Position numbers and translations under genes: made by a program. A stretch of 64,000 nt of DNA from Candidatus Zixiibacteriota bacterium. Its GTDB lineage: Bacteria > Zixibacteria > MSB-5A5 > GN15 > FEB-12. Each line of letters opens with the position of its first letter. Positions within the stretch are counted from its first letter, which is position 1. The notes beneath the pieces were generated by a model, which was given only the letters and a program-made list of their open reading frames with translations, made no database searches and was not told where the DNA came from. This document shows, piece by piece, positions 1-4,279 of the stretch. The DNA lies in NCBI GenBank assembly GCA_017999435.1, contig JAGNLV010000007.1, forward strand, positions 1 to 64,000, in the 5' to 3' direction.

Positions 1-394
1 GATTGTACCAAGCGGTATTACCGATCCCACCATGCGTATAAACGAAGACGCGTTCCTGCCAGGACGGAACCTTCTTTTATTGCTTTGCGGCGCTGCCTAC
101 GCTTACAGTGTACAAGCGGATGGCGTGGTAATAGGTTTGCTCAATCCTGAAGATTGTCTATTCCCGGATCAGACACTCGATTTTCTTCGTAAAACCGAAG
201 ACATGATCGAGACAGCCATGAAAAAGCGAATTGCAGTGCTCGCGCCTTTAATAGAGTTCACGAAGGCAGATATTCTGTCACTGGCAACAGCGCGTGGGTT
301 ACAAGATACGTATTCCTGCCACGCCGGGGGGAATGAGCCCTGCGGGAAATGCGTGGCATGTATTGAGATTGCAAATGCAAAGGAAAGGAGCTGA
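1..394 (+). CDS. QueC-like 7-deazaguanine synthase family protein (5' end cut by window edge)
   Basis: The reading frame is open to the left edge, so only the C-terminal part of the enzyme is present. Counting from the ATG at 32, a PGRN motif at residues 10-13 matches the QueC VPGRN segment. The four cysteines at 96, 104, 107 and 110 (CHAGGNEPCGKCVAC) match the QueC zinc site. QueC-family enzymes are ATP-dependent and turn 7-carboxy-7-deazaguanine into the amide or nitrile. No other queuosine gene is visible. Instead a TIR gene starts 3 nt after the stop, so this copy is more likely a defence-associated QueC relative (as in type IV CBASS or Qat) than the housekeeping gene. The ATP-binding SGGxDS motif would lie outside the window. 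Confidence 0.85.
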   Translation, partial: IVPSGITDPTMRINEDAFLPGRNLLLLLCGAAYAYSVQADGVVIGLLNPEDCLFPDQTLDFLRKTEDMIETAMKKRIAVLAPLIEFTKADILSLATARGLQDTYSCHAGGNEPCGKCVACIEIANAKERS

Positions 395-397
395 AAG

Positions 398-904
398 ATG
401 GGTGGAGGTGGCGGAGGCGGCCGCGGACTGACTCCCAGCGAGCTTCAACAGTTGGAGCAAAAGGCCAAAGAATCTCTGAAGACGAGTGGCGACACGAGTA
501 AATGCAACGTGTTCATTAGCTTTGCGGCCGAAGATTTGACAGACGTCAATATGCTTCGAGCGCAGGCAAAAAATGAAAATTCGGATATTGAATTCAACGA
601 CTGGTCATTGAAAAAGCCCTTCGACAGCAAGGATGCTGAATATGTAAAGCGAGGCATACGTGAGCGCATTCGGCAATGCTCGGTCACTGTCGTATACATA
701 TCCGAGAAGACTGCAGACAGCAAATGGGTTAATTGGGAAATCCGTGAGACAATTGCTTTGGGCAAAGGCGTGGTGGCTATGTATAAAGGCGATAGACCTC
801 CTTCTCGTTTGCCTAAGGCTATTTCCGAGAACAAGGTGCCTGTAGTACCTTGGAACCAAAAGGCATTGGCTGTAGCGATAAAGACTCAGGCGCAGAAAAA
901 GTAG
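398..904 (+). CDS. TIR-like domain protein with N-terminal oligo-glycine
   Basis: This 168-residue protein begins MGGGGGGGRG, has a short polar helix, then a TIR-like fold from about residue 36 in the style of Thoeris ThsB and MTH538/DUF1863. VFISF at 38-42 is the first TIR strand. The SKWVNWE segment ends in Glu114, the position of the NADase glutamate in this family. A strong ribosome site (AAAGGAG) sits 7 nt before the ATG, and the gene is tightly coupled to the QueC-like gene upstream. TIR proteins of this kind hydrolyse or cyclise NAD in anti-phage defence. The seven glycines use mixed codons (GGT, GGA, GGC), which argues for selection on the peptide. It could be the substrate of the QueC-like enzyme; that is inference. 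Confidence 0.85.
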   Translation: MGGGGGGGRGLTPSELQQLEQKAKESLKTSGDTSKCNVFISFAAEDLTDVNMLRAQAKNENSDIEFNDWSLKKPFDSKDAEYVKRGIRERIRQCSVTVVYISEKTADSKWVNWEIRETIALGKGVVAMYKGDRPPSRLPKAISENKVPVVPWNQKALAVAIKTQAQKK

Positions 905-944
905 TTAGCAGCGCTTTGAAGTAAGAAGGCGAACGTCAAAAGAT

Positions 945-1283
945 ATGATCCAGGATTTGGAACAGATTGAGTATCGCCGGGGTATGCTCGAAAAAGGCAT
1001 GAAACCTGACGATCTTCCAGCAAAAATATGGTGTGGAGCCAGAATTCCTGCGGTTGTACGCACCGCGATCAATACTGAGGGCTTGCTTAATCTCGGTGGC
1101 GTTTACGGGGACAAGAAGGCCGTCGATCCAGTGGAATACGACAACCTCAAGCTGGTCCTGACCGACGACACTGTCGAGATCACGGTTTTCAACCGCGGGA
1201 TCGCTCTCTTTATGTCTGACGACGAACGAATCCGTCGAATACACCGGGTGCTGTGCAAACTCGATGGAACGGGGAAAGATTGA
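945..1283 (+). CDS. hypothetical protein of the QueC-like/TIR cluster
   Basis: This 112-residue protein matches no family I recognise. It has no signal peptide or membrane segment, and is predicted to mix a charged N-terminal helix with strands in the second half (LKLVLTDDTVEITVF). Its stop codon overlaps the start of the next gene in a TGATG, which suggests translational coupling. It lies 40 nt after the TIR gene on the same strand, so it may belong to the same operon. The ribosome site is weak: only a distant AAGAAGG is visible. Confidence 0.55.
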   Translation: MIQDLEQIEYRRGMLEKGMKPDDLPAKIWCGARIPAVVRTAINTEGLLNLGGVYGDKKAVDPVEYDNLKLVLTDDTVEITVFNRGIALFMSDDERIRRIHRVLCKLDGTGKD

Positions 1284-1928
1284 TGGCGGGCTCAAGGGCA
1301 AGCGCGGAGAAGGTAACATGGTCAGGCCGTGTCATGGCTATTCAGCCTCGCATACGGCTCATACGTTCCTTTGATGAGCGGTCCCACAACTACTTGGGGT
1401 ATGTGCTTTGCATCGACGGAACTTGCGGCGGGGAGGCCGGCGAGTTCCTGATTGCGGTCGGTGAAGCTGCACACGAAAAACACCGTTTTCAGACAGGCAT
1501 GGAACTGAGCGGTTACTCCGTGTCGGTCGAAGACCCGCGCAAGGAGACGGCGGCGATCTACAAGACGAGCGGGCTCAAGGTCGTCAGGAATGCCGAGGGT
1601 GAAACTCCTGCCGGGCCGCCCTTTTGGAGTGCCTCCGAACCTGGCAACCTACCGCAGCCGTGGGCGTCGCCGTCTGGACGCCCGGACCTACGATATCAAA
1701 TGCACGACCTGCATCTGGGGCTGCCGGATGCCGGTGGAAATGATCATCGACCAGTGGAATCCGTCAAAGAAACAGTATCGGTTCGAAACCTTCTGTTACG
1801 GCCCCAAAAGCTGCCCCTTTTACCGGCCCGGGCCTGCGCGGAAAGTTCCGGGTCGAAAGGGTATGTCCTACACTGAAGAGGATTGGATCGACGAGGACGC
1901 CACTGCCCATCGGGGCCCGGATGATTGA
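1283..1928 (+). pseudogene. conserved hypothetical Cys-rich protein, frameshifted
   Basis: Two adjoining reading frames read as one protein. The first starts at the ATG at 1283, after GGGGAAAGA, and runs to about residue 114 (ending ...ETPAGPPF). The sense then continues one base later from about 1626 (GVPPNLATYRSRG...) and ends at 1928. The junction is at CCCTTTTGGAG, 1619-1629, so a small indel in the T or G run is the simplest cause. The C-terminal part carries several cysteines (CTTCIWGC, FCYGPKSC) that could bind a metal. I do not recognise the family. It may be a true pseudogene, an assembly error or, less likely, a +1 recoding site. Confidence 0.6.
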
Positions 1929-2751
1929 GGATGAGAAAGCCCGATGGTCAAAAAAACGGCAAAGCGGAAATTGGGTAATGCCGAATGAAATGGGTAACGA
2001 ATTGGGTAACGAGTCGGCCTGCGGAAAGAGGTTGATCTTTGCGACAGGTTTGCGACACAACTTGCGACAAACTCAAAACTCGACTTGCGACACCACCCTT
2101 TGGTAGGGTAAATGAGGAAGTGGAATTGCCAGGGCTTCCGGCACGCCGGGGGACACATGCTCTTTGATAGCTCATTGAATCACAACGGTTTCTGGTTAAC
2201 AGCCGGAGAACGAGAACGGTTATGAAAAGGGTTGCACATGGGGAGCTTTTCTATCCTTGGATCGAACTGCGTTTCCGAGTGCGGCGGTCCCGATCTCACG
2301 ACCATGCGCCGTAACCTCCAATTTGATAAAAAGTTAGCGTGATCCATTGGCAGGATTTGAGGCGTTCTTTGGAAGTCTCATTCGCTGCCCCCAAGGGAAG
2401 GGCCGCTGAAATCTCGGGAATTGCCCGGATGATCTGCAATAACGTGACTTAGATAAAGGGGCAGACTCAGATAGCACTTCTATCGAGCCGGTGGCGAGCA
2501 TATCGTCGTGAGCGGGGGCCATTTTACGGACTCCCCCTCCCCCACTATTCTGCCGCACTGATTGAACAACCGGAATCTGGGAGGCAACGTGGCGCGTGAC
2601 GGGATACCGGGATTGCACTCGTTTGAAGGCAGTCATCAAGATACCTCAAAAGAGGCTCAAGTCAAGTCGCACTATCGACCGCCCGCCGCAGGTGAACAAT
2701 CATCTCTGAAATGCAGCCTTCTGCCCCGTTAGATATGTGGACAGTGATTAG
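1929..2751. other. gene-poor stretch of the accessory island
   Basis: No convincing gene is visible on either strand. The base composition is lower in GC than the core part of the window. The first 170 bases hold short phased repeats, annotated separately. The rest looks like degraded or non-coding DNA before an IS21 remnant. Confidence 0.5.
1971..2092 (+). repeat. short phased direct repeats (GGGTAA x3, TTGCGACA x4)
   Basis: TGGGTAAyG-type units have their GGGTAA at 1973, 1992 and 2004. TTGCGACA is repeated exactly at 2039, 2050, 2062 and 2085, so the spacings are 11, 12 and 23 bases, close to whole helical turns. This resembles iterons or an operator array. It may instead be the 3' remnant of a gene with a repetitive tail. 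Confidence 0.5.
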
Positions 2752-3264
2752 AACGAAGATTCCGATTCCCTGAGGCCGCTCTCGGACTCGGGCGGGGAAG
2801 AAAGGCGAGATTATCATGAAGAGAATAGTCTTAACACTGCTGGTCGCTTCATCCGCGAACGGAGCGACGTCCTCATCCTGGGTCCCCCCGGCGTCGGCAA
2901 GTCGCACCTGGTCCAGGCGATCGGCCATCAGGCGGCCCGCATGGGCTTCACCGTCCTGTACCGCTCCATCTTCGATTGCCTAGGCGAACTGATCCCGGCC
3001 GAGAACTTCGGGGAGCGTGTCACCACCATGAACCGCTACCTCAAGGCGGACCTTCTGATCATCGACGAAATGGGCATCAAGAAGCTGCCCAAACAGTCCG
3101 GGGAGTACGTCTTCGAGATCGTCATGCGACGGCACGAACTGCGGTCCACCATCATGACCTCCAATCGGCCCCTGGACAACTGGGGCAAGCTGATCGGCGA
3201 TGTTCCCACCGCGGCCGCGATCCTCGATCGCCTGTTGCACCGGGCGGAGATCGCGGCATCATGA
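2752..3264 (+). pseudogene. istB: IstB-like ATPase remnant of an IS21-family element
   Basis: The frame is open from 2752 and shows the IstB AAA+ ATPase core. Walker A (GPPGVGKS) lies at about 2881-2904 and Walker B (LLIIDEMG) at about 3052-3075, followed by sensor-like TSNRP and the DRLLHRAEI segment. IstB is the helper ATPase of IS21 transposition. The usual N-terminal 80 or so residues are missing, the C-terminal tail ends early at a TGA, and no istA transposase is nearby. A potential ATG at 2941 would leave out Walker A. I read this as a decayed insertion-sequence fragment. Confidence 0.8.
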
Positions 3265-3429
3265 TACCGATGCCAGACAGAAAACCTGGCCGGTTTTCAC
3301 CCGGCCCGCAGACCGATTCTGCCCGTTGGTGCGGACCAGCGGAAAAGCCTCATCGCGCTGCTTGAGTGCAGCGGGATCACGGCCTGAAACACGCGCGGCT
3401 GCCCGCGCTTCAGCCGGCGTCGCAGATGT

Positions 3430-3921
3430 CTAGAACGACCAGTTCACGATGGGAAAGACGGGAAACTGGCCCCCCTGCTTGATAATGTTTACCAGGCCGA
3501 TCTGCAGGCCTCTCATAGTCACGGCATAGTTGACGAACCCCAGTTGCAGACCGCTAGCGTGGCCGGCATAGTTAACCATACCCCACTGGAACCCTTCGCA
3601 GGTACCCTTGGTGATGTTGACGGCCGTACTCTGCCAGCCGCTGAGGTCGGCATCGATCAAACCCACCAGCCCGAACTGGACGCCCTTTGAGATCCCGGCA
3701 GTGCAGTGACTGACCAGCCCCCAGTCCAGACCGCTGACGTACTGGTTCTTGCCGTAAAGCAGGCTGAGCCGCAGTCCGGCGATCGCTTTCTCTTCGGGGA
3801 CAATCTGAATCGGCGAGAAGAGAGAAAGCTGGATCGGTTTTTCCTGCGCCAGCAGCGGCTGGGCGACGAGGACGAGAGCAAGACACATCACCCCAAACAG
3901 GCTGCGATTCGTCTTCGACAT
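3430..3921 (-). CDS. LA_2272-type surface repeat protein
   Basis: This 163-residue protein starts at the ATG at 3921, behind GGAGGATC, with a clear signal peptide (MSKTNRSLFGVMCLALVLVA...). The mature part is built of short repeats in which an aromatic or hydrophobic residue, GL and a small residue alternate (GVQFGLVGL, GFQWGMVNY, GLQLGFVNY, GLQIGLVNI). This is the pattern of LA_2272/LA_2273 surface repeat proteins. It ends in an aromatic residue (NWSF), typical of outer-membrane beta structures. Its molecular role is unknown. It stands alone between two mobile-element remnants. Confidence 0.7.
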   Translation of the reverse strand: MSKTNRSLFGVMCLALVLVAQPLLAQEKPIQLSLFSPIQIVPEEKAIAGLRLSLLYGKNQYVSGLDWGLVSHCTAGISKGVQFGLVGLIDADLSGWQSTAVNITKGTCEGFQWGMVNYAGHASGLQLGFVNYAVTMRGLQIGLVNIIKQGGQFPVFPIVNWSF

Positions 3922-4279
3922 TTGATCCTCCAATCTGCTGAATGCCTCGGCGACGGACAACCTTGCTGCACATATACGCAATCGGGAGGGCATAGTCAAA
4001 CGAACTTGGATCCGCAGAGAGCCCGTCTTGCGCCAATGCTGTCACGTGCGGCGAGGGGCTGCCGAGGCCCCCGGATGGGAGAAAATGCTTCACTCGCAGT
4101 CCGGTCGGCGTGCACCCGAACGACTCTCAGCGGCGCCGATTCGGAGATCGCAGGGAAGGGGGTGTCGCCCAATATGCGATCAATGTGGCGGAGGGGTTGG
4201 GATTCTGTTGGCGGTGTCCTGGTATGTCGTTGCGTGCGAAGAAGGCACGCCGAAAGTTATTATATCGGATGCGATTAGG
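3922..4279. other. intergenic, nothing recognised
   Basis: The stretch lies between the surface-repeat gene and the left end of an IS3-family element. It should contain the promoter of the surface-repeat gene. I see no gene, RNA or clear hairpin in it. Confidence 0.4.

Follow-up and report, generated by a model that had tools for sequence, protein, structure and literature searches.

Here we describe a pair of genes at the left edge of a 64,000-nt stretch (the window) from Candidatus Zixiibacteriota bacterium (assembly GCA_017999435.1, contig JAGNLV010000007.1, here C7). The first gene encodes an enzyme of the QueC family and the second a TIR protein that starts with a run of glycines. Their features, all on the + strand, are as follows.

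2-394, +: QueC-like (Cap9-like) ligase, its 5′ end cut at the contig edge; identified by Pfam QueC, PADLOC QueC and identity to the QueC of locus L019
161-172, +: FPDQ motif of the QueC (YPDC in canonical QueC, YxDC in Cap9), from motif comparison
308-363, +: zinc site TYSC...CxxCxxC, intact, with the C[HE]x6CxxCxxC spacing of Cap9; SCHAGGNEPCGKCVAC at about 317-363
383-390, +: probable ribosome-binding site for translation of the TIR, within the 3′ end of QueC; an AAAGGAG-type sequence ahead of the ATG
398-904, +: ThsB-like TIR protein of 168 aa (Pfam ThsB_TIR), with an ATG start 3 nt past the QueC stop
398-427, +: N-terminal glycine tail MGGGGGGGRG of the TIR, proposed conjugation site (Gly2 after Met removal); from the homologue alignment and the model confidence (predicted local distance difference test, pLDDT)
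725-739, +: WVNWE of the TIR with the presumed catalytic glutamate E114, from the homologue alignment

A sequence-only reading of the stretch had described a QueC with an intact zinc site and, after a 3-nt gap, a TIR starting MGGGGGGGRG, and this is confirmed by the coordinates of the open reading frames (ORFs) and by the Pfam matches. The QueC frame is open from position 2 and its stop lies at 392-394. It aligns to Pfam QueC (PF06508) with an E of 2e-24 over profile positions 89-202 of 210, gives 1.8e-16 with the PADLOC QueC profile, and is 79% identical to the complete QueC of L019. As base 1 of the window is also the first base of C7, QueC has been shortened by the assembly and not by mutation. 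The TIR matches Pfam ThsB_TIR with an E of 1.1e-23 and PADLOC ThsB with 3e-19, and its predicted structure matches the Bacillus cereus TIR 8fz9 and ThsB structures. W110, V111, W113 and E114 are invariant in an alignment of 38 homologues; E114 is presumed to be catalytic, by analogy with TIR NADases. A GGAG-type site is found at the equivalent place in many homologous loci.

The two genes belong together. A tblastn search of plasmids found a relative of the TIR at 53% identity in rhizobia, and at the four rhizobial loci that were opened the TIR follows a gene annotated as 7-cyano-7-deazaguanine synthase, the order being PfkB, TIR-TGT fusion, DNA lyase, QueC, TIR. Patterns built on the TIR core, with the N-terminus excluded, returned 54 loci when run against 84,980 species genomes. 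Where the flank is long enough, profile matches of the ORFs nearly always place TGT-like, OGG-like, QueC-like and TIR genes in that order and on the same strand; L032 is without OGG, and contig ends truncate L033, L064 and L066. In all, more than 50 genomes, from nine or more bacterial phyla and from archaea, have the QueC-TIR pair (Pseudomonadota, Acidobacteriota, Methylomirabilota, Latescibacterota, Nitrospirota, Bacteroidota, Bacillota, Myxococcota, Thermodesulfobacteriota, Minisyncoccota and uncultured archaea, as assigned from record titles and tree labels). Many of the loci are from metagenome-assembled genomes, and the isolates include several Pseudomonas, Ruegeria and Sinorhizobium. 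QueC and TIR distances are correlated (r 0.87). A chance pairing of neighbors is ruled out by the conserved gene order in more than 50 loci.

The operon varies around this core. In the closest relatives of the window (L019-L022, L025 and L031) TGT is a separate protein of about 325 aa. In rhizobia (L012:3274-4674) the Cap10-like TGT domain carries a fused N-terminal TIR domain, and proteins matching this TIR-TGT fusion in length occur in the proteobacterial (Pseudomonas included), Nitrospira and L048 types. Genes for a PfkB-like kinase and for TPR-S proteins are added in many operons, and SLATT_1/SLATT_3-type proteins lie near 37 of the 57 QueC-containing loci. The sequence-only reading had proposed a module of QueC and TIR, and named an ordinary queuosine operon on the left flank as a finding that would speak against it. 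The pair proved real and its adjacency conserved across phyla, and the left flanks of the homologues hold a Cap10-like TGT and an OGG-like gene, often with PfkB and SLATT, instead of a queuosine operon; the pair turned out, however, to be part of a larger module, of which it makes up just two genes.

The glycine start is equally constant. With starts picked solely by nearness to the QueC stop, the TIR begins M-G-G in 56 of the 57 loci, as against 3 of 50 other TIR ORFs in which, by the same permissive test, GG follows the start (Fisher test on ORFs, p 2e-24, a value that is only indicative because the sequences are related). Those three are L011, a member of the family whose contig opens with the first codon of the TIR; a fragment produced by the frameshift at L071, where the frameshifted TIR itself has a start that reads MGGGSSGS; and L072. 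In the alignment of 38 homologues, Gly2 is kept in 37 and Gly3 in all 38, and Gly or Ser follows. The glycine codons of the window tail are mixed, and codons vary across homologues at the invariant Gly2 and Gly3, which bears out the earlier remark that the run is not a simple microsatellite and rules out a microsatellite origin. Because 56 of 57 loci keep MGG despite differing glycine codons, the start is more than chance. The structural model gives residues 2-10 a pLDDT below 50, and the tail is probably disordered; a helix and then the TIR fold come after it. The small TIRs of rhizobial plasmid loci start MGGGGGGDG, MGGGSSGS and MGGGGGGN. As a side observation, a distant MGGG-start TIR (36% identity) at L072:1260-2569 has as its neighbor a highly diverged TGT-like ORF (E 0.007 with Pfam TGT), and QueC was not detected on this 4.2-kb contig.

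What kind of QueC is it? Maximum-likelihood phylogeny puts the 57 TIR-operon QueCs in a single group (support 99/97), apart from canonical and cluster-4 QueC. TYSC is present in 53 of the 57 and in both Cap9 references, and in no canonical reference; C[HE]x6CxxCxxC is present in 57 of 57 and in both Cap9 references, and in no canonical or cluster-4 reference. The complete L019 QueC scores 116.8 bits, under the NCBIfam TIGR00364 equivalog cut-off of 150.3 bits, and its model matches both QueC 2PG3 and the Cap9-CdnD complex 9NTO (the latter with TM 0.78/0.85, rmsd 2.3). The separate clade, the motifs and the cut-off rule out an ordinary queuosine operon. The partner genes are seen in the relatives, the window contig ending inside QueC. 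There the TGT-like protein has Cap10 (9NTN, 6e-8) as its best sequence match in the PDB, matches PADLOC TGT at 1.8e-22, and has DSGxYE and FDGLxW in common with the protein in the Cap10 position of L080, a Pseudanabaena locus of a type IV cyclic-oligonucleotide-based anti-phage signaling system (CBASS). The OGG-like protein matches Pfam Ogg-HhH at 1e-24.

It is to type IV CBASS that the operon compares best. The L080 locus has QueC, a Cap10-like gene, a CD-NTase gene (MGGSGGGFFSNSD) and, next to the last, a weakly SLATT-like gene; the CD-NTase starts MGGSGGGFF, resembling the MGGSGGGFK of the L032 TIR. An OGG-like gene is also associated with type IV CBASS. Both arrangements thus place QueC-like and TGT-like enzymes next to a protein that starts MGG, and both have a SLATT-type effector and an OGG-like gene. 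The TIR operon differs in being without a CD-NTase, in having the TIR as the candidate acceptor, in FPDQ for YxDC, in a TGT that is often fused to TIR, and in the PfkB and TPR-S genes added in many loci. A single-sequence profile of the L080 CD-NTase matched only L080 at E up to 1e-3 and no TIR locus, and no CD-NTase is among the Pfam and PADLOC matches listed for the first 25 families of 28 neighbors. Judged by the CD-NTase, the TIR operons are not CBASS; their mechanism is probably close to that of type IV. In type IV CBASS, Cap9 conjugates 7-carboxy-7-deazaguanine (CDG) to the N-terminal Gly of the CD-NTase, which has the motif MGGS; once modified, this N-terminus is bound by Cap10 (PMC11996544, PMC13279940). 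The sequence-only reading had named a 7-deazaguanine on the N-terminus of a partner protein, in agreement with this chemistry.

Two other defense systems also share features with the operon. Like it, qatABCD has a QueC-family enzyme and an adjacent protein, QatB, with an N-terminal glycine motif (MGTS), which is essential (PMC13279940). It differs in that QatC is about 400 aa long, with extensions, a remodeled active site and C(x)19CGxCxxRR, in that QatB is helical and not a TIR, and in being without TGT or OGG; the 197-aa QueC of the TIR operon scores only 0.041 against PADLOC QatC, and its partner is a TIR. At L011/L073 (1-3327, an IMG/VR contig) the same TIR, 83% identical and starting MGGGGGGGRG, is followed by a 261-aa protein starting MGHT and then by a QatC-like protein (PADLOC QatC 1.1e-50), and two QueC-type systems may therefore adjoin there. 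With Thoeris the TIR shares the ThsB-like Pfam family and fold. Unlike in Thoeris, the partners are QueC, TGT, OGG and SLATT proteins, and among the annotated or scanned neighbors listed, which include the SLATT proteins, there is no ThsA (SIR2-SLOG or macro). ThsB is not known to undergo nucleobase conjugation. In a survey of the QueC family from 2026, the anti-phage members are Cap9 and QatC and TIR goes unmentioned, and a literature search for QueC with TIR returned nothing relevant, although surveys beyond its reach could hold a description. The conserved TIR operon is thus apparently undescribed.

We consider it likely that the window pair is the 3′ part of an immune operon of TGT (Cap10-like), OGG-like, QueC (Cap9-like) and TIR genes, in which the TIR replaces the CD-NTase of type IV CBASS, conjugation mechanism included; the interpretation offered by the sequence-only reading is to that extent supported. 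The gene order, the MGG start, the Cap9-like and Cap10-like identities and the conservation of the TIR glutamate can be read from the sequences themselves. On this basis, a modified guanine base is probably joined to the N-terminal glycine of the TIR by the QueC-like enzyme. We infer conjugation, a switching of the TIR and phage defense, which might proceed in four steps. Met would be cleaved from MGG..., exposing Gly2. In a reaction like that of Cap9, the QueC-like enzyme would then activate CDG with ATP and couple it to the amine of Gly2. The N-terminus so modified would be bound or read by the Cap10-like TGT, which is often a fusion with a second TIR domain. Finally, that N-terminus would license or restrain the TIR, and an NAD-derived signal or NADase would act on infection, the SLATT two-helix membrane proteins being the likely effectors.

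Several observations weigh against this proposal. In the window the ATP loop is not visible, since the contig end truncates QueC: the N-terminal ~70 residues, the loop included, lie beyond the start of C7. One of the 57 TIRs, that of L023, starts MAGSGGG. Cap9 as the sister of the TIR-operon QueCs has weak support (81/46). The left half of the operon was not found in the rest of the assembly with QueC, TGT or OGG queries. QueE searches of the host with TIGR03365 and archaeal QueE gave only weak matches, probably to other radical-SAM proteins, and with no clear QueE the supply of CDG in this genome is uncertain. With neither the upstream genes nor a clear QueE found in the assembly, the module here may be incomplete or fed otherwise; the general case for the operon rests on the relatives. 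Lastly, FPDQ, carried by the window QueC and by 56 of the 57 as against 0 of 12 reference QueCs, is private to the group and departs from the canonical YPDC and the YxDC of Cap9 by Tyr to Phe and Cys to Gln, so that the base or the reaction may differ.

The last point gives the strongest alternative, that the QueC-like enzyme modifies the TIR N-terminus with a small molecule or bond other than 7-amido-7-deazaguanine. Besides the altered base-recognition motif, the PfkB-like kinase of many operons is in its favor, as is the precedent of QatC: from its changed base-recognition residues, the authors of that study proposed that its modification is a distinct one (PMC13279940). The Tyr/Asp pair for base recognition nevertheless retains its Asp here, unlike in QatC, and the operons keep throughout a Cap10-like TGT, a relative of which binds a 7-deazaguanine-modified N-terminus; on balance we find this alternative unlikely. 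Less probable still, and in our view doubtful, is that QueC and TGT act on tRNA or DNA (or make preQ0), with the TIR a separate effector and its glycine tail a flexible linker. The QueC, TGT and OGG families do originate as nucleic-acid enzymes. A plain linker, however, would not need a fixed M-G-G start, which is absent from nearly all other TIRs and present in one CD-NTase of type IV CBASS, and the TIR-operon QueCs are a separate clade, a complete member of which falls under the canonical cut-off. That the loci are type IV CBASS with the TIR as effector and a CD-NTase located elsewhere or missed is very improbable: the Cap9/Cap10-like set and the SLATT effectors are in common, but no CD-NTase came up at the TIR loci with the L080 profile or among the Pfam and PADLOC matches listed for 28 neighbors, and it is the TIR that adjoins QueC and itself bears the acceptor-type N-terminus.

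The pair was probably acquired laterally by its host. The QueC-TIR stretch has a G+C content of 49% as against 65% for window positions 5001-64000, and at E <1e-40 QueC is in no other of 132 genomes of the phylum; the low G+C and this absence make lateral acquisition probable. Region 905-4000 is also lower in G+C than the remaining window. Nearby, at window 2821-3264, is what appears, by eye from the sequence, to be the remnant of an IstB-like ATPase gene. Elsewhere in the host a canonical TGT lies at C1:315881-316960 and three PTPS/QueD-family domains are in one 447-aa open frame at G000:C1:599439-600641; no other QueC was found.

Similar partners may exist outside the TIR operons. On plasmids, loci of cluster-4 QueC with PfkB (L081-L083 and L090-L093) have, upstream of PfkB, a short protein whose Gly/Ser-rich start, MSG[SPG], is conserved, and at L083 a longer, weakly HIRAN-like protein starts MGGGSGG. 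Cluster-4 QueC/PfkB loci have been read as purine salvage (PMC13329287). The Gly/Ser-rich protein suggests another N-terminal acceptor.

In closing, we lean, with less assurance than for the proposal above, to the view that these operons form an undescribed and widespread class of immune operon whose TIR is controlled through a 7-deazaguanine conjugated to its N-terminal glycine, and that such conjugation is a general switch on CD-NTases, QatB, TIRs and the HIRAN-like proteins found at PfkB-QueC loci. In 2025 N-terminal deazaguanylation was reported in one immune system; in a second it is suspected. If our view holds, this recently discovered protein modification would extend to the TIR family of immune proteins, and deazaguanylation would be a general control device in immunity, working through the same enzymes and acceptor motif, now on a TIR. 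It would also be linked to the TIR enzymes that plants and animals have as well, and a simple NAD assay of a small enzyme could then serve to test its role.
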